59,460 nucleotides of DNA from Acidobacteriota bacterium (GCA_024641545.1 JAHECW010000010.1:1-59460); one strand, 5' to 3'; counted from the first letter of the stretch, positions 30,546 through 43,483 are shown. Numbers and translations are program-made. Notes: generated from the letters alone by a model not told the origin.

Positions 30546-32705
30546 TCAATAGGTGTACCCGTCGTGCTCCTTCCCGTGGCACGTCAGGGTGCAGGTTCCG
30601 TTGTGCGTCCCCGTCGACACATACTCGAGAGTTCCGTTGAACGGAGTGACGACCGAGGTGTCGAAGTTGATGAGCTTGACGTTCGCCGAAGCGTGCGGAT
30701 CGTGGCAGACGTTGCACGGGGTTCTCTCGCCGGAAACGTGCTTCGAGTGGTCGTCGAAACTGGCGCCGCTGGAGAGGCTCGACCACGAGTGGCACTTGAA
30801 GCACATGGCGTACTTGGCCTGATTGAATTGCGAGTTGTTGTCGGCGGTGTCATGGCGTCGCTCGAGGAGGTACGGCCAGTCCGAGCCGTGCGGCCCGTTG
30901 TCGCCCGCGCCGCCGGCCGCCGGGCCGTCGTCGTTGTTGTGGCAGGTGGTGCAGCTCATGAGGCTGGTCTCGTCCCAGCCGTTGGTGGTGATGAGCGACG
31001 GAACGGAGGCGTTCGTGCCCTGCACCGAAACCGGGTGGTAAGACGCCATGGAACCGTCGAACTCCACCCGGAGATTGGACTCCGGGAACTGTCTCTGAGT
31101 CGGCGCCGCGGGCAGATTGGGACTGTCGGCGTGACAGCGGAAGCAGAGCTCGTACTCGTACGATGCCGGGTTGACCTCGTTCCCGGCGAGGTTGACGCCG
31201 CGAACACCCTCGAGCGGCCCCGACGCCGGTCTCGGCACGGTCGATGGGCCGGGAAGATTGACGCGGGCGACGGCGTCGTGCGGACCATGGCAGTCTTCGC
31301 ATTCGACGTGGCGCACGGTCACAGTGGCGGGCTCGTCCGACTGGTGGACCTCCGAGGCCAGCGCGACCGGGTGGACCGACGACTTTTGAAAATCGGTCCG
31401 CACATCGGCCGACGCCGGATTGCCGTCGTGGCAGGTGAAACAGAGTTTCTCCTCGAGGTCGACCTGAAGCCTGGGGTAGTCCCGGTTGACATCGTTGGTG
31501 TCTGGCCAGCCGTGCGCCTGGTGACAGTTGGCGCAGGTCGCCGTCTGCGACGAATCCGTGATGGCCGGAAACGTCGAACCGTACTGCCCCCCGGGCCACA
31601 GCGCGCCCGACGATCCCGGGTCGAGATGGGCCGCGGGGGTCGCGGTGTCGGCCAGGGTGTGGCACTCGATGCACAACGCGGTCCGGTTTGCACTCCGAAG
31701 CAGCGACCCGTCCGTGGTCGCCGAATCATGGATTTCGTGGCAGGTCAGGCACGCCACCCGGCTCGACGGATCGAGCGGCAGGGTGGCCGGTGGCTGGTAG
31801 GCCCCCGACCCGGGAACACCGGTCCCCACCGGATGGGATCCGTCACCGGTGCTGAGGACGTTCCTCGCATCGTGGCAATCGACGCACATCTCGCCGTTGG
31901 CGTTGTCCACGCGCATGAAGTGGCGCCCCTCACCGGTCCCGGCGCCACCGTAGGCGGGCGCGGCCGAATCGAAAGGCACCCTGGATTGGTTGTGTTGGTT
32001 GTGGCAGGTCGAGCACATGGCCCGGCCGTCTTCAAGGCGGCTCGACATCGCCGTCGCGGTCGGTCTTCTGAGATCGGTCCTGACGAAAATCCGCCAGACG
32101 TCACCCGAGACGAAGGACGGCGGGGTATCACCGTCGACGAAACTCGCGGTCACGCCTTCGTTGAGGGGGACATCGGCGCCGGTGGTCAGACCGGTTCCGC
32201 CGCCGCCCAGGGTGTCGTTCCAGGAAAAGACGGCGACACCGGCCACCCCGGAAGCGGTGATGGTCAGGGTGTAGGTCTTGGGGAACCGGCCGGCGAACAC
32301 ACCGCCGGGCACGACGTCACCACGCGAGGTGTTGCCGGCGTTCGGTTTGACGTGACCGGCGGCGCCCGAGTCCCAGCGGTGAGAGGTGCCGGAGGCCGGC
32401 GTCCCCGGGGGCAGCCCCGGCGACGGCGCAGCCTGGTCGGCGGCGACAAACGGGAACGCCGCGGCGAGCCCCCCGGTGACGTGGCAACTCATGCACAAGT
32501 TGCCGTTGCCCGAAACCGTCGTCAAACCGCCTCCCGCCGAGCTGTGCGTCGTGTGGCAGCTCGAGCAGTCGATGGCCCACGAGGAATCGTGCGGTGGATC
32601 CAACGCCTCGGCGGCGGGCACGATCAGCAGCAGGACCACCGCCGGCAGGAGCCGCCGCGCGAGGATTCCCACCGATGAACTACGGGGCTGCATCAGACCA
32701 GGCAT
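30546..32705 (-). CDS. Multihaem c-type cytochrome, 13 CxxCH plus one CxxxCH
   Basis: This 719-residue exported protein has a signal near residues 15-35. Thirteen CxxCH haem sites (first CSSCH, last CNVCH) and a final CxxxCH (CTLTCH) near the C-terminus are visible. Many sites have a following xxH (CHTTH, CHNQH, CHEIH, CHQAH, CHGPH, CHDPH), the doubled-CxxCH pattern that supplies the second axial ligand. Residues 100-200 form a haem-free beta-rich insert (KTYTLTITASGVAGVAVFSW). It probably works outside or at the outer membrane. The ATG at 32705 overlaps the NHL gene by 26 bases with GGAG 6-7 bases upstream. It is the last gene of the cytochrome locus. Confidence 0.93.
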   Translation of the reverse strand: MPGLMQPRSSSVGILARRLLPAVVLLLIVPAAEALDPPHDSSWAIDCSSCHTTHSSAGGGLTTVSGNGNLCMSCHVTGGLAAAFPFVAADQAAPSPGLPPGTPASGTSHRWDSGAAGHVKPNAGNTSRGDVVPGGVFAGRFPKTYTLTITASGVAGVAVFSWNDTLGGGGTGLTTGADVPLNEGVTASFVDGDTPPSFVSGDVWRIFVRTDLRRPTATAMSSRLEDGRAMCSTCHNQHNQSRVPFDSAAPAYGGAGTGEGRHFMRVDNANGEMCVDCHDARNVLSTGDGSHPVGTGVPGSGAYQPPATLPLDPSSRVACLTCHEIHDSATTDGSLLRSANRTALCIECHTLADTATPAAHLDPGSSGALWPGGQYGSTFPAITDSSQTATCANCHQAHGWPDTNDVNRDYPRLQVDLEEKLCFTCHDGNPASADVRTDFQKSSVHPVALASEVHQSDEPATVTVRHVECEDCHGPHDAVARVNLPGPSTVPRPASGPLEGVRGVNLAGNEVNPASYEYELCFRCHADSPNLPAAPTQRQFPESNLRVEFDGSMASYHPVSVQGTNASVPSLITTNGWDETSLMSCTTCHNNDDGPAAGGAGDNGPHGSDWPYLLERRHDTADNNSQFNQAKYAMCFKCHSWSSLSSGASFDDHSKHVSGERTPCNVCHDPHASANVKLINFDTSVVTPFNGTLEYVSTGTHNGTCTLTCHGKEHDGYTY

Positions 32706-33771
32706 TCACATCTCCAGTTTCGAAACCATCGCTGAAGATCACACCGTTCGGGGGCGGGGTCAGAAAGTCGTCCAGACCGAAGACCTCCACCCGGCCGCTG
32801 TTCACCGAAGACACGAAGAGCCGGTTCAAGCCGTCGATGGCCATCCCGAACGGCGTCCGGAACTGGCCGGGTCGATCTCCCAGGCTGCCGATGACGGCGA
32901 GTTCCGCTCCGTCGCCGTCAAAGACCTTGACATGGCCCTGGAAAGCGTCGGCGACATACACTCTGCCATCGAGGTCCCCGACGACGCCCTGGATTCGGCC
33001 GAAGTTCCGATTTCCCCCGCCCTGAGCTCCGAAACACCTGAGGAACGAGCCATCCCGGTCAAAGACCTGAACCCGATCGTTGTTCTGATCGCCGACGAAG
33101 ACCTCGCCGCCGGGACTCACCCAGAGCGCCGACGGGAAATCGAACTGTCCGGGCCCGGTCCCCGGCCCGCCGAAGGAACGCACCAGTTGGCCGCCGGGTC
33201 CGTAGACTTTGATCAGATCCGCCCCACCATCGGCGACAAAGATCAGGCCGAGACCGAGGTCCGGGTCGACGGCGATGTCGGTGACGGAGAGAAACTCGCC
33301 CGCGCCCGAGCCGAGGACCCCGGCGTGCTGCCACGACGAATCGAAGATGTCCACCCGGCCCATCGACTGGTCGCCGACGTAGATGGTGTCGAAGGCATCC
33401 ACCGCGATGGCGAGTGGGACGCCCATGCCGCCGCGGACCGCAACGACGACGCCGTAAACATCCTTCACCACCACCGCGCCCCGGGTCGGGTCGGTGAGGT
33501 AGATCCTGTCCTGGGAGTCGGTCGTCAGCCGCGCCGGGGCCCGCAGGCCCTCGGGTTGCGAGTCCAGGAACTCGACATCAGGAGGGGGCAGGACGGGCGT
33601 GCCGCCCCAGCTGCAGAGCTGAGCCGAAACGACCGACGAACCACCCAGAAGGACGACGACGAACGCGCCGATCAACGCCAGGACCGCCCGATTCCCGGGT
33701 CGCGTGGCGCGGCCCGAGCACTGCCGTGCGAAGCGCATTCCGGTCACCATCTCTGTTGCGTTCATGACCAC
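32680..33771 (-). CDS. Secreted NHL-repeat beta-propeller with DGFETGD tail
   Basis: This 363-residue protein has a signal or anchor at about residues 28-50 and then six-bladed NHL repeats. Examples are LTTDSQDRIYLTDPTRGAVVV, LWVSPGGEVFVGDQNNDRVQVFD and FGMAIDGLNRLFVSSVNSGRVEVF. The C-terminus reads IFSDGFETGDVNAWS, a short tail also found on the unrelated protein at 58049. NHL propellers bind proteins or other large ligands; in cytochrome-nanowire gene clusters such propellers are recurrent companions. The GTG at 33771 has GGAG 8 bases upstream. It overlaps the 14-haem cytochrome gene downstream and lies 153 bases below the 8-haem gene. Confidence 0.88.
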   Translation of the reverse strand: MVMNATEMVTGMRFARQCSGRATRPGNRAVLALIGAFVVVLLGGSSVVSAQLCSWGGTPVLPPPDVEFLDSQPEGLRAPARLTTDSQDRIYLTDPTRGAVVVKDVYGVVVAVRGGMGVPLAIAVDAFDTIYVGDQSMGRVDIFDSSWQHAGVLGSGAGEFLSVTDIAVDPDLGLGLIFVADGGADLIKVYGPGGQLVRSFGGPGTGPGQFDFPSALWVSPGGEVFVGDQNNDRVQVFDRDGSFLRCFGAQGGGNRNFGRIQGVVGDLDGRVYVADAFQGHVKVFDGDGAELAVIGSLGDRPGQFRTPFGMAIDGLNRLFVSSVNSGRVEVFGLDDFLTPPPNGVIFSDGFETGDVNAWSDAAP

Positions 33772-33924
33772 CGTCCGCTCTCCTGCAATTGCGGCGTCTC
33801 CCGTTTGGTACCAGTTCTCGTTATCATCTACTATTGCTCAATCCTGCAACCGGGTTCAGTGGCCCACGTCACGGCTTTCCTCGTCGCCACCGGGAACCCT
33901 TCAGCACCAATGAACGTTGAACGA

Positions 33925-35055
33925 TCAGTCCTTTCTGTCGTCGGGTCTGGTTCCCGGCCGCGGCGGCGCCTGAACCCCGGCCGGATACCGACCGAGGTTC
34001 CGGTCGTGGCCGGGGTCGGCAAACCTCGGTCGACCTTCGGCGGTGAACATCGGCCCGTAACCGAGGGGGTTGTGATCGACGCCGTGACAGGTCAGATAGC
34101 AGCCCCCCATTCCCGCCGCTTCCGAGCTGTACTCGAGCCGCCCCGAACTCGAGGCCAGGACGCCGGTGATCGCCGTGGGTTCGTTGAAGCGGATGAGGGC
34201 CCGCCCAGCGGTCGCGCCGTGGGCATCGTGGCACAGGACGCATGCGGTTCGTTGGTCCGCGACGTGCATTCGGTGGTAGGGAAAGGGATCGGAATCGAGT
34301 ACGACGGTTCGATCGTGGCATTGATAGCACAGGGCGTAACTGCTCTCCGACTCCGGCTGTCCGTCCTGAATCGAGTAATCTGCGCCGAGCAATCCGGGCA
34401 CCCGGCTCCCGTGCGGCCCGCGCGCGCCTCGGGCATCATCGTTGGTGTGGCAATCAGAACAGTTGATCAGCGAATCCGATGTCAGCGGCGGCAGGAGGCT
34501 CGGAACCTCGCCGACACCGATGGCGAGGACCGGGTGGAACGAGGGATTCCTCGAGTCGAAGAGCAGCCCGATGTCATGGGGATCCGAGACCATGGCTGAT
34601 CGGGTTCCATGACACGACAGGCAGAGGCTCGCTTCGGTGGGGAAACCCCGCTTCGGCGAAGGCTTCTGCCGTCCGAGGTCGAGGCCGGTCCCGGTCAGGC
34701 CCTGCAGCCGGCCGATGCCGTGAACACTGTGGCAGTCAACACACCGCGCCCCACGGTGGATCACCGGTTTGACCATTTCCCCGCGGATGTCCGCCGGGTC
34801 GGCGCCGGAGTCCATTCCGAGGGCTTCGCGCCGGCCGGGCTCGGCGGCGCCCGCCTGATGGCACGCAATGCACATCACGTCGCTCTCGCTCTTCAACATG
34901 GGTGTGCGGGCGGCCCCGTGACCCTCGTGACACGGGGTGCAGGCTTCGGCGAGCTTGCCCGGCTCGAAGTGCTTGCCGAGATCAACCGCCGAAACCGCCG
35001 GCGCGACCAGGAAAACCGCCGCTGCGGCCGTTCTCAGGAATGACAGGCGATACAT
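33925..35055 (-). CDS. Octahaem c-type cytochrome, 7 CxxCH plus one CxxxCH
   Basis: This 376-residue exported protein has a signal at residues 1-23. Seven CxxCH sites are seen (CTPCH, CIACH, CVDCH, CLSCH, CSDCH, CYQCH, CVLCH) and one CxxxCH (CYLTCH) near residue 329. The region around the last two sites is plainly homologous to the C-terminus of the 14-haem protein (DAHG, GRLEY, CxLTCHGxxH), so they are paralogues. The C-terminal tail after the last haem is Arg/Pro-rich. The ATG at 35055 lies within the tetrahaem gene (22-base overlap) with GGGAGAG just before it. It is a probable periplasmic or surface electron carrier. Confidence 0.93.
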   Translation of the reverse strand: MYRLSFLRTAAAAVFLVAPAVSAVDLGKHFEPGKLAEACTPCHEGHGAARTPMLKSESDVMCIACHQAGAAEPGRREALGMDSGADPADIRGEMVKPVIHRGARCVDCHSVHGIGRLQGLTGTGLDLGRQKPSPKRGFPTEASLCLSCHGTRSAMVSDPHDIGLLFDSRNPSFHPVLAIGVGEVPSLLPPLTSDSLINCSDCHTNDDARGARGPHGSRVPGLLGADYSIQDGQPESESSYALCYQCHDRTVVLDSDPFPYHRMHVADQRTACVLCHDAHGATAGRALIRFNEPTAITGVLASSSGRLEYSSEAAGMGGCYLTCHGVDHNPLGYGPMFTAEGRPRFADPGHDRNLGRYPAGVQAPPRPGTRPDDRKD

Positions 35056-35687
35056 AACTCTCCCGGTTTCGCGGTGAGAAGAAAATTGCCGTAGGGATCG
35101 CGATGGGGATCATGGCAGGTCGTGCACTGGATCCGATTCTCCTCGTCGAGTTTCGCGAGGGGGTGGTTCCGCATCTCCGACACCGATCGCAGAGGCACAT
35201 CACCCTTGGAGTTGTTGGTCGTGACGAGGTGATCGGTCACCGTGAAGGAGACCGGATGATCGCCGCTGAGATCACGACCGAGATTCGATTCCGAGGTCGA
35301 CGGCATGGTGGTGATGCCGCCACGCATTTCGATGCGGCCCGACGACACCGTCGACCCGAGAGCGATGGTCCCGTCGTGGCAGGACAGACAGAGCTTCGAG
35401 GAACCATTGGGCTGCGGCGCCTCACCCGAGGAACCGTAGGCGTCCATGGTTTCGCTCCAGTACATCTGGTAGCTGCCTCCGGGACTCTCCCGATTCCACA
35501 ACGGCGCCTGAAAAACCGCGTTGTGGGTCGTGTGACAGAAGATGCACACCCTGGTCTCCGACACCGCCCGGACGGCACCCGGACCGGTCACCGACAGATT
35601 GTGGGCCGTGTCGCGGACGCTCTCCTGCGACCACGCCAGCACCGCCAGGCCGAAAACCAACGTCAAGGTCACCATTGCGCGTCTCAT
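35034..35687 (-). CDS. OmcE-like tetrahaem c-type cytochrome, second copy
   Basis: This 217-residue protein has a signal at residues 1-20 and four CxxCH sites: C48-H52, C100-H104, C188-H192 and C212-H216. The order AHN(L)S, CHTTH, APLWN, CLSCHDGTIAL, SGDHPVSF, CTTCHDPH and LCIACH at the very end is the layout of OmcE-type nanowire subunits. It is shared point by point with the protein at 39526. One difference stands out: the PLWNH histidine is Arg66 here (PLWNR). Other free histidines are H29, H55, H144, H153, H175 and H195. It starts at an ATGA overlap with the upstream NHL gene and overlaps the octahaem gene. Confidence 0.85.
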   Translation of the reverse strand: MRRAMVTLTLVFGLAVLAWSQESVRDTAHNLSVTGPGAVRAVSETRVCIFCHTTHNAVFQAPLWNRESPGGSYQMYWSETMDAYGSSGEAPQPNGSSKLCLSCHDGTIALGSTVSSGRIEMRGGITTMPSTSESNLGRDLSGDHPVSFTVTDHLVTTNNSKGDVPLRSVSEMRNHPLAKLDEENRIQCTTCHDPHRDPYGNFLLTAKPGELCIACHS

Positions 35688-36691
35688 TTCCGGTTGTCCC
35701 TCCGTTGGTAGCGCATGAGCTGGATCCGTCGATTCCCGGTGTCCGCTACGACCATCTGCCCGCGCCCATCGATGGCGAGGCCTCCCGGCGTCCAGAACTC
35801 ACCCGCATTGAAACCGCGGCCGCCGATGATGAGCAGTAGCCGGCCGTCCTGGTCGAAGACCTGCACCGCGTCGAAGCGCGCATCGGACACATAGAGGTGG
35901 CCGTCGGGGTCGATCGCCAGTCCCTTGGCCAGGGCGAAATGGCCGGATCCGTCCCCGTGCTGGCCGAACTGAGACAGGTATCGAAGATCCGCGTCGAACT
36001 GTTGGACGCGGAAATTGAAGGGATCGAGGACCCAGATCGTGCCGTCCGGCGCCTCGACGATGGCGGTGGGGGTGTTGAACTCGCCGTCGCCGGTGCCGCG
36101 CCTGCCGGTCCTGGCCACCTCGAGTCCGTCGGAGCGGACCCGCACGACCTGACCGGCCTCGGCATCGGTGATCACGACGTCGGAATTCGCACACACGGCG
36201 ATCCCGCCACAACGCTGCACGACGTCTCGGCCCACCACCTCGCCAAGCAGCGAGCCCTTGGGCTCGAACGCGAAGACCACCCCGCTGTCACGATCCGCGA
36301 CCAGAATCCGGTCCCCGTCCCGGTTTGACGCGATGGCGACCGGTGCCACTCCGTCAGGCAACTTCAACCTGGTTGCTGCGCTTCCGTCGGTCCTGCCGCC
36401 GATCACCCAACCCACCGCCGTGTCGACGACGAAGACCCGGTCTTTGGCGAGGGCGACGGCAACCGGCCGCGGCAGCTGCCACGACTGTTGATGCCGCTCC
36501 GCACCCGCCACCGCGCGGAAGACCCGACCCAGGCCCTTGGGACGGAACTCGTCGACGATGCCCTGCCAGACAACCTCCGCCGGAGCAACCGCGGTCGCGG
36601 GCGGCCAGACCGGACCGTCGGCGCCCACCGCCGGCAACGGCAGGCAAGCCGCCCCGAACACGACCATGAGCATGACGCGGTGCATTCTCAC
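35684..36691 (-). CDS. NHL-repeat beta-propeller of the cytochrome locus
   Basis: This 335-residue exported protein has a signal at residues 1-23. A VWPPATAVAPAEVVWQG segment follows, which parallels ILYPAAPAQAVVEWVG in the propeller at 40484. NHL blades follow (VAVALAKDRVFVVDTAVGWV, IVEAPDGTIWVLDPFNFRVQQFD, LAIDPDGHLYVSDARFDAVQVFD, LAIDGRGQMVVADTGNRRIQLM). It is translationally coupled on both sides: GTG overlapping the barrel stop and ATGA into the tetrahaem gene. A role in docking or assembly of the surface cytochromes is inferred from the conserved pairing of such propellers with OmcE-like genes. Confidence 0.9.
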   Translation of the reverse strand: MRMHRVMLMVVFGAACLPLPAVGADGPVWPPATAVAPAEVVWQGIVDEFRPKGLGRVFRAVAGAERHQQSWQLPRPVAVALAKDRVFVVDTAVGWVIGGRTDGSAATRLKLPDGVAPVAIASNRDGDRILVADRDSGVVFAFEPKGSLLGEVVGRDVVQRCGGIAVCANSDVVITDAEAGQVVRVRSDGLEVARTGRRGTGDGEFNTPTAIVEAPDGTIWVLDPFNFRVQQFDADLRYLSQFGQHGDGSGHFALAKGLAIDPDGHLYVSDARFDAVQVFDQDGRLLLIIGGRGFNAGEFWTPGGLAIDGRGQMVVADTGNRRIQLMRYQRRDNRK

Positions 36692-38448
36692 CGTCGCTGG
36701 TCTCCGGCTCTGAAGGTGAAGACCCGCCTCACCCCGACCCAGATTCTCCGGAACCGGCGCTGTTCGAGCCCCGCCTCCTCGGTCCGCTGCTCGCGGACCC
36801 GTGCGTAGAACGAGAGTTTGGCGTAGTTGAACCGCATTCCAAGCTCCGCGAATTCATAGGTCCCGAAAAATTCGAAGACCTTGCGTTCCTCGGAACGCAC
36901 ATACGCGTCGAACATCAACCAGTACGTCGGTGCCCAGCTGATGTTCGCCTGCCAGACATCGGTCAGGGTCGGAACCTCGCCCCCGACCAGCTCGAATCGG
37001 TCCCCGGAGGCGCCGATGGTCACCGGCCCGAGCGCGATGTTGAGCTGGGCTCGCACAACATTCTCCTCGATCTCGGCCCCACGATCCAACCGCACCCTGT
37101 TTCGGTAGTCGCCCTCCAGGGAAATCGCGCTTCGGCGGCTGGGTCGGACCTCAAAGATCAACCGACCCCGGTAGCGTCGTCGATCGAGTCCGGTGAGGAA
37201 CGCGCTTTCGATCGGGGGGCCACCGATGTCGTAGTCCGGGATGGAGAGTTGGTTGTCGAAATACTCGGCCTCGAAGGTCACGCTGGAACGGTCCATCTGG
37301 TAGCGGACCGAACCGAAGAACAGCGACCCCAGAGCGGACTCCGTCTCGAGGCTCTCGGGATCGGCCCGGAGGTAGGTCACCCGCGGGTACAGCGCCAGCC
37401 ACCAGCGGCCGAACTGTTTGCCCCATCTCAGCCCGAGGCCGGCGCGAGGTTGGCCGAGCCGCAGGCCATCGCCGAACTCATTGCTCAGATAGCCGAGCTC
37501 GCCTTCGAGAAAGGTCGACGGGCTCAACGGGGCCACCACGCTGGCCGAGACATTCCCGGTGATGACCTCCTCGACCGGATCGGTCTCGACCCTGACAACC
37601 CTGAGATCCGCCCTCAGATCCCAGAAGCCGAGCTGACTGTAACGGTGACGCAACTGGTTTCTGAACAGGTAGTTCGTTGTCCATGGCGAGAACTCGCCGT
37701 GATCTTGAGCCGAACGGTAGAGGTTTCCGATGAGGTCGGTGTGCCAGTAGACCCGGCCGGTCCGGTTGACATCGACATCCAGCCGGCCGGTCCCGATCTC
37801 CTGCTGCAGGCCGCCTCCGAAGAGGTCGTTCGTCTTCCACAGAAGCTGCAGCACGGCGTCGACCTTGCCGACGGCCGCCTGGGTCGAGAGCTCGCTCCAG
37901 GCGGTGTCCTCGTCGCGAAGCGTCTCCGGCTGATCGGCCGTGAAGCTCTGGTTCCAGTGCCGGAGATTGAGGCGGAACCAGTCACCCCCGAGGGCGCGAA
38001 GACCGAAACGCTGGTAGTCGCGCACGCCGTCGACAATCGCACCCTGCATCAGACCCGTCACATCGGTGCCCTGGCGCCCCGCGCCGAGCTCGAACGAGAC
38101 CGCGCGGTTGTTGAAAAACCGCAGCGACCCGTCGTAGTAGGTGTCATCCACCTTGTTGCCCTGTTGGCCCGAGATGGTCTGATTCGACAGTGTCTTCGCG
38201 ATACTGGCGTCATAGGTCATGAATCTCGGGTCGACGAAGTGGCCGGAAACGGCCGCCCAGAGGACGGATTGGAGATTCGACCTCGTGGCTGAACTGCTCC
38301 GGTACTCCTGCGAATCGCTGAGGTATTCCGCCGACAGGCCAAGGGTGAAGGTCGCACCGCTCGAGGCCCAGACCGAGCCGGCGGCGCCCCACAGACAGAT
38401 CGCGGCACCGAACAGGCGAGCGGCGGGGTTCAGAAGCTGTCGATGCAC
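36688..38448 (-). CDS. Outer-membrane beta-barrel of the cytochrome locus
   Basis: This 586-residue protein has a signal at residues 8-29 and then alternating amphipathic strands throughout (ATFTLGLSAEYLSDSQEY, VSFELGAGRQG, LGLRWGKQFGRWWLALYPRVTYL, KLSFYARVREQR). There is no plug or TonB box. It is consistent with a 20-plus-stranded porin-like barrel, such as the outer-membrane part of a porin-cytochrome conduit or a filament secretion channel. It starts at GTG 38448 within the foldase gene (19-base overlap) and ends overlapping the NHL gene. The position between foldase, propeller and tetrahaem genes supports an electron-transfer or export role. The last residues are not the usual terminal Phe. 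Confidence 0.85.
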   Translation of the reverse strand: MHRQLLNPAARLFGAAICLWGAAGSVWASSGATFTLGLSAEYLSDSQEYRSSSATRSNLQSVLWAAVSGHFVDPRFMTYDASIAKTLSNQTISGQQGNKVDDTYYDGSLRFFNNRAVSFELGAGRQGTDVTGLMQGAIVDGVRDYQRFGLRALGGDWFRLNLRHWNQSFTADQPETLRDEDTAWSELSTQAAVGKVDAVLQLLWKTNDLFGGGLQQEIGTGRLDVDVNRTGRVYWHTDLIGNLYRSAQDHGEFSPWTTNYLFRNQLRHRYSQLGFWDLRADLRVVRVETDPVEEVITGNVSASVVAPLSPSTFLEGELGYLSNEFGDGLRLGQPRAGLGLRWGKQFGRWWLALYPRVTYLRADPESLETESALGSLFFGSVRYQMDRSSVTFEAEYFDNQLSIPDYDIGGPPIESAFLTGLDRRRYRGRLIFEVRPSRRSAISLEGDYRNRVRLDRGAEIEENVVRAQLNIALGPVTIGASGDRFELVGGEVPTLTDVWQANISWAPTYWLMFDAYVRSEERKVFEFFGTYEFAELGMRFNYAKLSFYARVREQRTEEAGLEQRRFRRIWVGVRRVFTFRAGDQRR

Positions 38449-39401
38449 CCTCGGACCTCGATCGTCGCTCGGTCGGACAACTCACGATCGAACTCCTCGA
38501 GCCGGCGCTGTCTCTTCTCCCGTATGATCCTTTCCTCCACCGCATCCCACACGACGGCGAGCTCGACCGGTTGTGATGGACGCGTGCTGATCACTTGCAG
38601 GACGTGGTAGCCGAATATCGACGACACCGGGTCGGTCACCTCTCCAACCTGTGCCGAGAAGACCGCCGCATCGACGGCGGGCTGCAGCGATCCGCGGTGG
38701 ACAAAACCGATGTCGCCCACCTGATCACGGAACCGAGGCGGCAGCGCCTCGAGCACGGTCTTCCCGATGACGAGAAGCGACGCCTTACTGCTGCGGGCTG
38801 CGCTGACGAGTTCGCGGGCGCGCTGCTCGGCCTCCTGCCACTCCTCCCGAGTCGCGGACGGCGGGACGTAGAACAGGATATCGGCAACATGACGTGCTTC
38901 CGGGGTCATATAGTCGTCGCCGTGAAGGATGAAGAAGACCTCGACCTCGGTCGCGGTCGCAGGCTCCACGCCGGCGACCACCGCGCGGTCGACCGCTTCG
39001 GCCACGGCGTCCCGTGCGAGGGCCGACCGGAAGGCGTCCTCCGCGATTCCCTTGGTCGCGAGCGCGGCGCGGTACTGCTCATCGCTCTTGAAGCGTTGTC
39101 GCACCTCCCGCCACGCCGCCTCGGCCGCCGACGGATCGACCTCGACCGGGTTGGCCGGCGCCCACTGCCGCTTGAGCTCTTTGAGAACCAGAATGTCGAG
39201 GGCTTCACACCTGAGTTCGGCCCTGCGTTCGGCGGAGACCTCCCGGTGATAACTCCCGACCGAGATCCGCACCGCGAGCTCACGATCGAGTTCCCACGAC
39301 TCGAGCCGAGCGCCGTTGACCACGGCGACCGGATCGGACGCGTCCGCCCGCGCCGCGCCCGCCGCAGCGCACACGAACCATGCGATGAGGATGACCTTCA
39401 C
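38430..39401 (-). CDS. PpiC/SurA-type peptidyl-prolyl isomerase
   Basis: This protein of about 323 residues has a signal (VKVILIAWFVCAAAGAARA), a SurA-like N-terminal helical chaperone region (PVAVVNGARLESWELDRELA, then a long helical stretch), and a parvulin rotamase domain at about residues 175-290 (ARHVADILFYVP, FRDQVGDIGFVHRG, SIFGYHVLQVI). It should help fold exported proteins, here most likely the barrel and cytochromes encoded beside it. The GTG at 39401 is chosen because it gives a compact signal peptide; the longer frame upstream runs through the terminator of the tetrahaem gene. It overlaps the barrel gene by 19 bases. Foldases of this type recur in nanowire cytochrome clusters. Confidence 0.85.
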   Translation of the reverse strand: MKVILIAWFVCAAAGAARADASDPVAVVNGARLESWELDRELAVRISVGSYHREVSAERRAELRCEALDILVLKELKRQWAPANPVEVDPSAAEAAWREVRQRFKSDEQYRAALATKGIAEDAFRSALARDAVAEAVDRAVVAGVEPATATEVEVFFILHGDDYMTPEARHVADILFYVPPSATREEWQEAEQRARELVSAARSSKASLLVIGKTVLEALPPRFRDQVGDIGFVHRGSLQPAVDAAVFSAQVGEVTDPVSSIFGYHVLQVISTRPSQPVELAVVWDAVEERIIREKRQRRLEEFDRELSDRATIEVRGCIDSF

Positions 39402-39456
39402 CGACAGCCGTGTTCCCGCCGACCCGGCGGTCGGGACGTGTTTTCGGGCCTTCAGC

Positions 39457-39497
39457 CAACAAAAGACACGGGAGACGAGGTCGTCGCCTCCCGTGTC
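39457..39497 (-). terminator. Rho-independent terminator after the OmcE-like gene
   Basis: The perfect 10-bp stem GACACGGGAG/CTCCCGTGTC (39465-39474 and 39488-39497) has a 13-base loop and is followed on the minus strand by TTTTGTTGG. It lies 29 bases after the OmcE-like stop and upstream of the foldase start. It would make the tetrahaem mRNA mostly separate and abundant, with some read-through into the foldase-barrel operon. Confidence 0.8.
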
Positions 39498-39525
39498 ACG
39501 AGTTCGCGTTCGCAACGGAATCGGT

Positions 39526-40137
39526 CTACTTCGCGTGACAACGGAGGCAGATGGTGCTCCCTGCGGGATCTTCCACCAGAAGCGACGGGTTACCGCCGAC
39601 GGCGCCTCCGTTGTGGACATCGTGGCAGGTCGCGCACTCCACCTTGTTGGCAAAGAGATAGTCTGCAATGGTCCCGTCGGCGTAGGTCGCCGAGGTCGGA
39701 TTGAGCTCGGGATCCTGTCCCGTGCCGGTTCCGGCGCTGTAGGTCACGCTGATCGGGTGATCGTTCGATAGATCTGTTCCAACCAGGGCGCCGCCTCCGA
39801 TGTACGTCGTTCCGGTGGTGTTGCCGCCGAAGTTCTCCAGCGCAACGGTGCCGTCGTGACAGGAAAGACACGCCTTGGAGACATCGGCCGGCTGCGCATC
39901 GACCTCCCCATCGAGGGTGTCGCTGGTGTACATGGTGAAGTTCGACGTCGTCACCTCGTGGTTCCACAACGGAGCAACAAAGGCGGTTTCGCCATCGTGG
40001 GTCGTGTGGCACGGCAGGCAGATGGTGCCGTTCGACCAGGTCTCGTTGCTGAAATCATGTGCGCTGTTGGTGATCTGGGCGCTGGCCACCCCGGCTCCCA
40101 GAATCAAACACATGCTCGTCACAATCGCTTTCTTCAT
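39526..40137 (-). CDS. OmcE-like tetrahaem cytochrome, candidate nanowire subunit
   Basis: This 203-residue exported protein has a signal (residues 1-20, ending VASAQ) and four CxxCH haem sites: C40-H44, C90-H94, C168-H172 and C197-H201. There are five further histidines for axial ligation: H27 (SAHDFS), H47 (CHTTH), H60 (PLWNH), H127 (SNDHPIS) and H175 (CHDVH). The SAHDFS, CLPCHTTH, APLWNH, CLSCHDGT, DLSNDHPIS, KVECATCHDVHN and terminal CLRCHAK series is the layout I associate with OmcE, which polymerises into a micrometre-long haem wire in Geobacter. It has its own promoter, a strong Shine-Dalgarno (GGAGGG, 8 bases) and a strong terminator, as expected for a highly expressed filament subunit. 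Filament formation is inference. Confidence 0.88.
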   Translation of the reverse strand: MKKAIVTSMCLILGAGVASAQITNSAHDFSNETWSNGTICLPCHTTHDGETAFVAPLWNHEVTTSNFTMYTSDTLDGEVDAQPADVSKACLSCHDGTVALENFGGNTTGTTYIGGGALVGTDLSNDHPISVTYSAGTGTGQDPELNPTSATYADGTIADYLFANKVECATCHDVHNGGAVGGNPSLLVEDPAGSTICLRCHAK

Positions 40138-40257
40138 GATCCATGCCCTCCGATTTCAATTCACCAGAGACCCGAATCGAACCCGGCTGCCGGCGTGAGC
40201 CGCCCACGCGTGACTGCGAACGACCCGCAGGTTCGGACGAGCCTCATCAACGGCCGA

Positions 40258-40286
40258 AGCATACGATGCGATTATTCCCGTTTCAA
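40258..40286 (-). promoter_or_regulatory. Sigma-70-type promoter of the OmcE-like gene
   Basis: On the minus strand TTGAAA (-35, 40286-40281), a 17-base spacer and TATGCT (-10, 40263-40258). The predicted start of transcription is about 40251, giving a leader of about 113 bases. Confidence 0.65.
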
Positions 40287-40304
40287 TACTTGCACCAATG
40301 AACA

Positions 40305-40320
40305 TGTGACTAAGGGCACA
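40305..40320. promoter_or_regulatory. CRP/FNR-like site at about -61.5 of the OmcE-like promoter
   Basis: TGTGA-CTAAGG-GCACA matches nine of ten CRP consensus positions. Its centre (40312.5) is 61.5 bases upstream of the predicted transcription start, the classical class I activator position. Which CRP/FNR-family protein would bind is unknown. Confidence 0.5.
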
Positions 40321-40483
40321 TAATTAACCGGGTTTCTGTCATGAGAGGGTAACCGAACCATCGAATCAGGACACTGTCTCAAAAATTCAACCCCCCTTTC
40401 TGCAGGAAATGACCCCGCCGGGGCCGTCGCTGAACGCTCGATCGGTCGGGTTTCCGACCTCACGGTCAGTACCGGTTGGCCGA
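40321..40483. other. Intergenic region between the NHL lipoprotein and OmcE-like genes
   Basis: Two short minus-strand hairpins follow the NHL stop: GGTCGG-AAAC-CCGACC (40444-40459) and GGCCCC-GGC-GGGGTC (40411-40425). They probably end or slow the upstream transcript. The rest is AT-richer promoter-distal DNA with no gene. Confidence 0.4.
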
Positions 40484-41533
40484 TCACTGCGGTGCACCGA
40501 GGAACCGAAACAGCTGAAGCCGGTGGTTGAGGGTGTCGGCGACGACCAGCAGCTCATCACGCTTCGCGATTCCTGACGGCAAGGAGAATTGCCCCGGCCC
40601 CTGGCCCGGTTCTCCGAACCACATCAGAAGCTCGCCGTCGAGGTTGAACATCTGGACCAGTTGGAACGCGCCGTCCACCTCGTACAACACACCGTTGTCC
40701 GAGTCGGCGACCAGGCCTCGGGGCCGATTCAGGTTCCCCGGGCTGTCGCCGGCACTCCCGAAGATCAGATCGAGATCGCCGGCCGGATCAAAGACCTGAA
40801 TCCGGAAGTTCAAGTAGTCCGAGACATAGAGGTAACCCTCACCGTCAAAGGCCGCCGCCACCGGAAAGTTGAACTCACCGTCGCGGGCGCTGCCGACGTG
40901 GCCTCCCAAGGTCATCACCGCCAAACCCGTCGCGGTTTCGATCACATCGACCGCGTGACGTCCGGTGTCGCAGACCGCGATCCGATCGCCGCCGGGCGTC
41001 AACGCGATGGACGTCGGTCGATCGAAGATCCCGGCGCCACCGTAGGCCCTCACGAACCGGAGATCGCGATCGTAAGAGTAGACGGCCTGCGAACTCGCAT
41101 CACTGACGTACAGGGTTCCGTCCTCGGCTACCGCCACTCCGACGGGCTGGAAGAGCGATCCCGGAGAGGCGCCGCGGAAGAGCTCGAACCGCCGTTGGTC
41201 CTGATTGATGACCACGACCCCCCGGAGGTGCTGGTCAACTACGAAGATGGTTCGATCCGGCCCGATCGCCACCGCCGTCGGCGCCATGAGCGAGGCTTCC
41301 TGTTCCTCTTCGCCCACCAGAACCTTCCTCCAGGTGCGGCTGCGGGTGTCGACATCTGCGTGCGTGCCGATGGCTCCTACCCACTCCACAACCGCCTGGG
41401 CCGGGGCCGCAGGATAGAGAATTCTGGTCGACCCGGATGCCGTCCTCCGATCGGCGGGCGCGCCGCCCGAGCTGCATGAGGCAACGAACACTGCCACAAC
41501 CAATAGAAGTACGAAGTGCGATCGATGATCCAT
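40484..41533 (-). CDS. NHL-repeat propeller lipoprotein
   Basis: This protein of about 349 residues has a lipoprotein signal with lipobox VASC (C20 if started at the ATG at 41533). It is a six-bladed NHL propeller (VAIGPDRTIFVVDQHLRGVVVI, VAVAEDGTLYVSDASSQAVYSYD, AAFDGEGYLYVSDYLNFRIQVFD, LLVVADTLNHRLQLFRF). The ILYPAAPAQAVVEWVG segment after the signal parallels the propeller at 35684. An alternative ATG at 41557 overlaps the stop of the 21-haem gene (ATGA), but gives a worse signal peptide and no Shine-Dalgarno; GAGAGCGGGG precedes the chosen start. It is likely anchored in the outer membrane and coupled to the 21-haem cytochrome. Confidence 0.88.
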   Translation of the reverse strand: MDHRSHFVLLLVVAVFVASCSSGGAPADRRTASGSTRILYPAAPAQAVVEWVGAIGTHADVDTRSRTWRKVLVGEEEQEASLMAPTAVAIGPDRTIFVVDQHLRGVVVINQDQRRFELFRGASPGSLFQPVGVAVAEDGTLYVSDASSQAVYSYDRDLRFVRAYGGAGIFDRPTSIALTPGGDRIAVCDTGRHAVDVIETATGLAVMTLGGHVGSARDGEFNFPVAAAFDGEGYLYVSDYLNFRIQVFDPAGDLDLIFGSAGDSPGNLNRPRGLVADSDNGVLYEVDGAFQLVQMFNLDGELLMWFGEPGQGPGQFSLPSGIAKRDELLVVADTLNHRLQLFRFLGAPQ

Positions 41534-41553
41534 GAGTAACGCCCCGCTCTCGT

Positions 41554-43305
41554 TCATTTGGGGTGGCACGCAATGCACAGCTCGGCCTGGTTGGTCGCCT
41601 TCCAGGTGAAGAGTTTCGAGCTCGGCGCGGCGTGGGGCTCGTGGCACTGCCGGCAACTCATCTCTTGGCCCACAAGAGACTTCGCCACCTGCGTCCGGCC
41701 CTTGGCTTCGATGACTCCGGTCACGGGGTGCTCGGGAATCGGGTGGTTCTTGCGAAGACCGGGGTCGAGGTCGATCACTTTGAGATCCTTCGCCCGTTCG
41801 CCCCGGAGCACATACCCTCCTTCGAGTCTGATGCTCTCATCTCGCCCCGCCTTCACCCGGCTCTGGAGGTGACACCCGTTGCAGAGGTCGTTGCCGGAAG
41901 CCTTGAGGAGGTGCTCCTCCGCGCCGCCGTGCGGCAGGTGACAGCTGTGACAGCCGATCCACGAGATCGCCCGGTGGACGGCGTCGCCCTCTCCGCCGGC
42001 CTGGTCCTCATGGCAGTCAAGGCACAGCCCGCCTCCCGCGGCGCGCAGGAGCTTCGGCTGCCGTGATGCGTGGGGAGAGTGACAGTCCACGCACTCCAGG
42101 GCTGCCATGGCAGGGTGGGGAACGGCGGCGGTCGCGATGGTTTCGGAGACCTCTTCGTGGCAGTTCTCGCACAGGGCGTTGCCGCCTCCGTCCACCAGGT
42201 TCGGCGCCGAGCCTTCGTGACAGTTGCTGCAGCCCTCGCGGAACGGCGGATGAATCGATCCGTTGGCGATCAGCGGCAGGCTCGACGACCCGTGCGGGTC
42301 GTGGCAGCTGCCGCAGCGAGCGGTCGCCATCTCCGCCCCGAAGTGCAACCTCCGAAGCTCGGGGTCGGAAGCGTCGTGGCAGGCGCGACAGAGTTCGTCC
42401 TCGTCGTCCAGAAGCATTGCCGGCCGATCGCTGGAATGCGCATCGTGACAGCCGTCGCAGCCATCCTCCAGGGCCGCGTGACCACCGGGCCCTTTCGCCC
42501 GTTCGGCAATCTCCGGGTGGCAGGAGAAACACAGGTCTCCGCCACCCGCCTTGAGCAGGAAGGGCTGTTCTGCGAGGTGGGGATCGTGGCACCCGACGCA
42601 GCGGCCCTGCTTGACCGCAGTGTGCACCACAGCGCCGTTCTTCGTCGCCACCCCTCCATGGCACGCCTCACACAGCGAACCCCCTTCATGAAGCAACCGA
42701 ACCCGGGTCCCTCTCGGCTTTCGGTGGCACGCTTCGCACGAACCCTCCGCGAAGGGCAGATGCCGCGAAACGCCCCGTAACATGTGTTCGTTCTCCGAAC
42801 CGTGCGTGTCGTGGCACGAACGACAATCGGCGCGGCGCACCGGGATGGGGTGCAGCGCGTCGGTCGCGTCCGCGTCGTGGCACTGCCCGCAGACCTGCCC
42901 GGGGTCCACCACCAGCAACGCATCGAAGTCGGTGCCGTGCGGATCGTGGCAGGTCCCGCAGTCGTCGATCACCGGCGCATGGGGGACCGCGACCTTGCCC
43001 TCCGCGGCCTTGACCATACCGTCGTGACACGCCAGGCAGAGCGCCGAACCGGTGTCCACCAGCCCGACGGTCGTCGTTTCCTCACCCTGATCGAACGCGT
43101 GGCACGTCAAACAGTCGTCGACGGCCGGAGGGTGGGGAATTCGAACCGCGAGAATCTCGTCGTGACAGGTCTCGCAGGTGGTCTTTTCCGGGTCCACGAG
43201 CGTCGGGTGATCCGCCGCCGATGCGATTTCCACGGCGGCGCCGGCGACCACCAGGATCGCCACGCAAAGACCGCGACCGAAGACGGATCGGTGTTGTATC
43301 TGCAT
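41554..43305 (-). CDS. 21-haem c-type cytochrome (doubled CxxCH type)
   Basis: This 583-residue exported protein has a signal near residues 8-31. I count 21 CxxCH sites, from CETCH near residue 44 to CIACH at the last residues, about one haem per 28 residues. The sites come in pairs of the doubled-CxxCH type, with CHDPH, CHDTH, CHDAH, CHSPH, CHLPH and CHEPH providing second-ligand histidines. Pairs are separated by LLxxxGGxLCxxCH repeats, suggesting growth by tandem duplication. One haem-poor basic segment (about residues 480-545) precedes the last pair. The ATG at 43305 has GGAG upstream. It heads the locus and could be a periplasm-spanning or surface wire. Confidence 0.94.
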   Translation of the reverse strand: MQIQHRSVFGRGLCVAILVVAGAAVEIASAADHPTLVDPEKTTCETCHDEILAVRIPHPPAVDDCLTCHAFDQGEETTTVGLVDTGSALCLACHDGMVKAAEGKVAVPHAPVIDDCGTCHDPHGTDFDALLVVDPGQVCGQCHDADATDALHPIPVRRADCRSCHDTHGSENEHMLRGVSRHLPFAEGSCEACHRKPRGTRVRLLHEGGSLCEACHGGVATKNGAVVHTAVKQGRCVGCHDPHLAEQPFLLKAGGGDLCFSCHPEIAERAKGPGGHAALEDGCDGCHDAHSSDRPAMLLDDEDELCRACHDASDPELRRLHFGAEMATARCGSCHDPHGSSSLPLIANGSIHPPFREGCSNCHEGSAPNLVDGGGNALCENCHEEVSETIATAAVPHPAMAALECVDCHSPHASRQPKLLRAAGGGLCLDCHEDQAGGEGDAVHRAISWIGCHSCHLPHGGAEEHLLKASGNDLCNGCHLQSRVKAGRDESIRLEGGYVLRGERAKDLKVIDLDPGLRKNHPIPEHPVTGVIEAKGRTQVAKSLVGQEMSCRQCHEPHAAPSSKLFTWKATNQAELCIACHPK

Positions 43306-43483
43306 CAGTTCTCCATCATTCGCGGAGCGTCCGAGAGCCGCCCGTGACCCCACCCCGCCGGAAAGCCGACCCGGCGGGTGTCGACGCCGGTTGTACGTCC
43401 ATCTCAAGATTCACGCTCCAGAATCGTGCCCTCGTGTCTTCGATCGCCGTTTTGCGTCTCATGTTGCCCGAGGTCGACAAATC

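Follow-up and report, generated by a model that had tools for sequence, protein, structure and literature searches.

In this study, we describe a cluster of ten genes in a 59,460-nucleotide stretch of DNA from an Acidobacteriota bacterium (GCA_024641545.1, JAHECW010000010.1:1-59460; hereafter the window), two of which, named here H and D, encode homologues of the nanowire cytochrome OmcE of Geobacter sulfurreducens. We further present phylogenetic evidence that D belongs to a separate group of OmcE-type domains, which in most related loci are fused to a second multihaem domain. All ten genes are encoded by the minus strand, within 30546-43305. They encode five multihaem cytochromes with 51 haem sites in total (J 21, H 4, D 4, C 8, and A 14), three NHL propellers, a parvulin and an outer-membrane barrel candidate, as a first-pass annotation of the sequence had stated and as our gene, motif, and Pfam checks confirmed. 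From 5′ to 3′ on the coding strand, the genes and features are:

41554..43305, minus strand: J, 21-haem cytochrome with MtrA/DmsE-like repeats (alternative TTG start at 43407)
40484..41557, minus strand: I, NHL propeller with a lipoprotein-like signal (VASC; Pfam NHL 3.1e-19)
40138..40483, minus strand: 346-bp gap 5′ of H, holding a sigma-70-like promoter match
39526..40137, minus strand: H, OmcE-type tetrahaem cytochrome, probable nanowire subunit (7TFS 1.5e-16, 9yuq 4.2e-20)
39465..39497, minus strand: terminator-like hairpin between H and G, a 14-bp stem followed by TTTTGTT
38430..39401, minus strand: G, SurA/PrsA-like parvulin peptidyl-prolyl isomerase (Pfam Rotamase 4.5e-13)
36688..38448, minus strand: F, probable outer-membrane beta-barrel of 586 aa
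35684..36691, minus strand: E, NHL propeller (Pfam NHL 4.9e-18)
35034..35687, minus strand: D, OmcE-fold tetrahaem protein, probable docking unit (7TFS 3.4e-29)
33925..35055, minus strand: C, 8-haem cytochrome bearing a separate signal peptide and orthologous to the C-terminal part of the fusion described below
32680..33771, minus strand: B, NHL propeller, paired with A (Pfam NHL 5.1e-9)
30546..32705, minus strand: A, 14-haem cytochrome lacking an OmcE domain but homologous to C in its C-terminal part

The NHL repeats of B, E, and I and the parvulin (Rotamase) domain of G exceeded the Pfam cut-offs. All 21 haem sites of J are CXXCH motifs, while C carries seven CXXCH and one CX3CH, and A carries 13 and one; the CX3CH site is genuine, the C, L, C, and H of 'CxLxCH' being invariant in 13 aligned homologues. 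The starts of J (43305, ATG), I (approximately 41557), and G (approximately 39401, GTG) were corrected, and H and G are therefore 124 bp apart and do not overlap. Elsewhere the genes are tightly packed, and the overlaps of 4-26 bases noted earlier were measured as 4 (J/I, where the ATG of I overlaps the stop codon of J, F/E, and E/D), 19 (G/F), 22 (D/C), and 26 (B/A). Within the 5.38-Mb genome there are two full OmcE-type domains only, both at this locus. As a separate observation, an unusual expansion was seen in the 6.4-Mb genome G005, which holds 18 separate OmcE-like matches spread over L054 and other contigs.

In comparisons with the PDB, both H and D matched the G. sulfurreducens OmcE filament (7TFS) over their full length, as they did 9yuq, a putative multihaem cytochrome c present as 16 PDB chains, which the fused proteins also match over their full length and with which sequence only was compared. 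The sole further match of either protein was a weak C-terminal one of D, and no OmcS or OmcZ entry was found among the PDB matches of H or D at E values up to 1. Moreover, the four CXXCH motifs and the four distal histidines of OmcE are kept in both proteins and are invariant in a 20-sequence alignment that includes OmcE, H, and D; all of them are likewise invariant in 56 fused OmcE domains and nearly invariant in 135 standalone ones. OmcE-type tetrahaem proteins are encoded in one operon with propellers, a barrel candidate, and a foldase, as the first-pass annotation had proposed. H probably polymerises into a nanowire.

To place the locus among its relatives, we gathered more than 100 loci by searching 297 genomes from the same phylum and by scanning named genomes, mostly by way of OmcE matches. 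In most of these loci the position of D and C is taken by one 11-haem protein, composed of an OmcE domain (approximately residues 1-210) and a seven-haem domain homologous to C; in one such fused protein, residues 10-210 match residues 9-232 of the 7TFS chain. D and C are separate in the window, in five members of its family (L035, L159, L160, L161, and L162) and in L048 of another family, and in most split loci the two genes overlap by about 20 bp. Loci bearing the fusion span at least eleven named phyla, including Pseudomonadota, Bacteroidota, Thermodesulfobacteriota, Calditrichota, Ignavibacteriota, Chlorobiota, Verrucomicrobiota, Kiritimatiellota, Nitrospirota, and Planctomycetota, although the named loci are mostly metagenome bins and single phylum labels may thus be wrong. 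Carriers in culture include Carboxylicivirga marina (L096) and Aestuariivivens marinum (L134). No description of an OmcE-domain fusion was found in the literature searched, beyond whose reach lay a 2023 Cell paper on cytochrome nanowires, and the novelty of the fusion is provisional.

The recurring block in these loci runs OmcE, NHL, 5-haem cytochrome, barrel of about 655 aa, NHL, and 11-haem fusion. The lineage of the window has the 21-haem MtrA-like gene before I, lacks the 5-haem gene, and has the parvulin after H; the order J-I-H-G-F-E-D-C is seen in relatives from its family and is partly present in G263, from another family. The arrangement, which had not been recognised when the locus was first annotated, is therefore a conserved one, and the linkage of the OmcE-type genes to barrel and propeller genes is kept in relatives, contrary to the outcome that the first-pass annotation had named as refuting its reading. 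Where 7 kb of upstream sequence was available, a small OmcE-type or tetrahaem gene lay within 11 kb of every fused gene (47/47), and an NHL gene was directly upstream of 45 of the 47. At one Bacteroidota locus (L059:6901-9803), the fusion gene is separated from omcE by genes for a histidine kinase and a sigma-54 response regulator, which probably regulate the nanowire operon; gene pairs that are similar, by size only, were seen in L057, L061, L062, L079, L097, L108, L115, L124, and L131.

A tree of 136 OmcE domains placed 89 standalone sequences on one side and 40 fused together with seven split D-type sequences on the other. H grouped with the Geobacter-type OmcE among the 89 (branch value 99), less firmly so in a bootstrapped tree of 62 sequences, in which D fell inside the fused group (98/98). 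The two groups also differ in signature, since D and the fusions carry HNLS and CTxCHDPH, while the standalone OmcE proteins carry HDFS, CSxCHDVH, and a terminal CHxK. A clade joining the H proteins of the window and L159 with D was rejected by the approximately unbiased (AU) test (p = 0.0012), and the local duplication of a tetrahaem gene suggested by the first-pass annotation is rejected on the tree together with this test. On this phylogenetic evidence, D is the orthologue of the N-terminal OmcE domain of the 11-haem fusion and an ancient paralogue of OmcE; we class it as an OmcE-domain paralogue and not as OmcE because it groups with the fused domains and not with the standalone ones. In addition, a Mantel test over 65 loci showed correlated distances for the two OmcE domains (r 0.45, 0/2000 permutations).

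With regard to the remaining parts of a possible conduit, J scored 186 bits against TIGR03508, whose cut-off is 192.2, and matched chain A of PDB 6r2q (E 1.5e-14). Its orthologues occupy the same position in L035, L037, L048, L159, and L160, and its role is probably that of a periplasmic electron feeder. J-like cytochromes with 42-43 CXXCH motifs in approximately 1030-1070 aa adjoin OmcE genes in family f33 of the same phylum (L049:12094-15189, L050:6874-9954, and L155, 1068 aa). F, which has orthologues in L035 and L048, gave no Pfam match and no PDB match, and was modelled, at low confidence, with a signal helix and some 26 strands. A profile of the proteins of about 655 aa at the barrel position of other loci finds the L048 orthologue of F (E 2.9e-9), and direct profile-profile comparison of window-type with other barrels was weak (probability 19%).

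The 14-haem cytochrome A is related to this system through its C-terminal part, as a profile of the C domain scores it at 152 bits over residues 434-719, and B-like/A-like pairs are also present in L047, L049, L050, and L095. The counterpart of the B-A pair (30546-33771) in L095 is from a Gammaproteobacteria bin, and the DNA of that locus matches the window at 64% over 1164 bp, hinting at lateral transfer of a B-A module.

Terminator-like hairpins follow 31/125 H-type genes across the loci versus 9/505 other genes, and the enrichment persists in a gap-matched comparison (27/95 versus 11/236, p = 9e-9); no hairpin follows the D-type (0/7) or the fused genes. Such an enrichment after H is expected if filament subunits are made in excess over fixed parts. 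The region's only sigma-70-like promoter match (TTGAAA-17-TATGCT, 40286-40258) is weak evidence, given that about 1.2 such matches are expected there by chance.

Several known systems resemble the locus in part. An NHL gene adjoins both the Geobacter-type omcE and H of the window and is the one neighbour that the two have in common in our maps; Geobacter-type loci, unlike the fusion-bearing relatives, have the order 10-haem, 8-haem, NHL, omcE and lack an OmcE-domain fusion. The first-pass annotation had named a propeller, a barrel, and a foldase as recurring companions of omcE in Geobacter and relatives. The NHL gene is indeed beside omcE, and a foldase was not found there with a narrow profile. 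The interpretation as a whole stands for the OmcE type and the conserved linkage and falls for the local duplication and the unique arrangement, which the tree, the AU test, and gene order in relatives refute. A protein of 748-807 aa is encoded a few hundred bases to 2 kb 3′ of the Geobacter-type omcE in L139-L142, L144, L146, L147, and L158; the two that were scanned had no Pfam match.

By gene content, the OetABI cassette is like the window in that it combines a barrel with one periplasmic and one extracellular cytochrome and with putative filament cytochromes; its filament protein is, however, OmcS/OmcX-like and not OmcE-like, and the accessible part of the source mentions no OmcE-domain fusion (PMC10553843). 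An operon of SEEP-SRB1 encodes a six-bladed propeller, 16- and 26-haem cytochromes, and a peptidyl-prolyl isomerase (PMC5539420). Compared by gene content only, it shares with the window the combination of propellers, parvulin, and large multihaem and small cytochromes in one operon, and the window differs in its 21- and 14-haem proteins, its barrel candidate, and its two OmcE-type proteins. The MtrCAB/Pcc systems are similar in that J resembles the MtrA/DmsE repeats, with a score slightly below the TIGR03508 cut-off, and that a barrel and a surface cytochrome are encoded together. They differ in that F has no MtrB_PioB match, J carries roughly double the haem number of MtrA, and C is not MtrC-like at the domain level.

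From these observations we infer, with moderate confidence, that the locus encodes an OmcE-type nanowire and a trans-outer-membrane conduit, in which D-C would be the docking piece of H. H would be secreted and polymerise into the wire, while D and C would be the two halves of a surface cytochrome, made as one 11-haem protein in most relatives, that sits outside barrel F. In OmcE filaments, one haem per subunit is ligated by a histidine of the neighbouring subunit (PMC9473688). Because subunits complete each other's haem ligation in this way, an OmcE-fold domain with the full ligand set would be a natural first subunit, and it is possible that the OmcE-fold domain of D replaces one subunit of the wire, that H stacks on D, and that the haem chain of D continues into C. 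On the inner side, J would carry periplasmic electrons to the barrel. Folding and export may be aided by G and by the NHL propellers, one of which lies beside each secreted cytochrome (I-H, E-DC, and B-A), and A may be an alternative surface cytochrome.

A number of points weigh against this interpretation. In the 62-sequence tree, only 41% of the bootstrap replicates set the standalone group apart by a single branch. The Geobacter-type omcE loci indicate that OmcE wires can exist without the fusion, at least there, and the co-occurrence counts are inflated by the collection of loci through OmcE matches. We make no claim on wire polarity. A profile test gave no support to the idea that the start of the C domain imitates the N-terminus of a following OmcE subunit, and this idea was rejected (the N-terminal OmcE profile gave a median of 9.1 bits at that site versus 6.9 at other haem sites); the histidine before the first haem of this domain is conserved. 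Lastly, the evidence for F as a probable barrel is weak, consisting of its position, the strand-rich model, and the profile link of its L048 orthologue, and the AlphaFold models of C and F (pLDDT 42 and 37) are too low in confidence to be usable.

Among the alternatives, the one that survives best, though we consider it unlikely, is that D-C or the fusion acts on its own as a surface reductase or contact cytochrome, whose OmcE fold is an inherited electron-transfer module without wire contact. The C domain resembles 6qvm (4.5e-13) and 6i5b (7e-5), which we take to be surface multihaem cytochromes; A has a C-like domain without an OmcE domain, and matches to the C domain without an OmcE part, and with no H match, occur in G010, G042, G100, and G101. 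Against this stand the constant presence of an H-type gene and the invariance of the ligand set, including the ligand that needs a neighbour. Slightly more doubtful is the formation of two nanowires, or of a mixed wire, by D polymerising alone or with H, which the first-pass annotation implies. D does hold the full OmcE ligand set and matches 7TFS better than H does, and some relatives have several standalone OmcE genes. However, in most genomes the orthologues of D are joined covalently to a seven-haem domain, D belongs to the fused paralogue group and carries its signatures in place of the filament-type ones, and its gene is overlapped by the next gene and not followed by a terminator.

The direction of electron flow can be considered in the context of the host genome, in which contig C42 encodes an MtrC-like and MtrA-like pair, contig C11 an MtrA-like protein beside an MtrB/PioB-like frame (the genome's only PF11854 match), and C22:32366-35530 (L165:4366-7530) a 23-haem cytochrome that ends in a cytochrome b561-like domain and recalls the CbcL-type quinone oxidoreductases. 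These genes make extracellular electron transfer plausible. Inward flow, as uptake from minerals or partner cells, seems to us about as improbable as the two-wire arrangement. Gene content does not fix the direction, and OetABI with OmcX/OmcS-like cytochromes is proposed as an electron acceptor in syntrophic sulfate reducers (PMC10553843); the 23-haem b561-domain protein and the MtrCAB-type genes are, however, also the usual kit for mineral respiration. It is very improbable that H and D act as common soluble carriers in the periplasm and form no filament, given that both match OmcE over their full length and no soluble tetrahaem carrier in the PDB, and their operon with a barrel candidate and surface cytochromes is conserved.

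How nanowires are anchored and coupled to a conduit is unsolved according to a 2025 review (PMC12307469). A surface cytochrome with an OmcE fold fused to it, which many phyla encode next to a wire subunit and a barrel candidate, offers a concrete candidate for this missing joint. We suggest, more tentatively than for the locus itself, that many bacteria may mount OmcE wires on a socket made for them. This would be an ancient paralogue of OmcE joined to the surface cytochrome of the outer-membrane conduit by fusion or, as in the window where the two are split, by translational coupling, and it would seed the wire, fix its polarity, and carry the haem chain without a break from periplasm to filament. 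The fusion may thereby serve as a sequence marker of nanowire-plus-conduit operons in uncultured bacteria.

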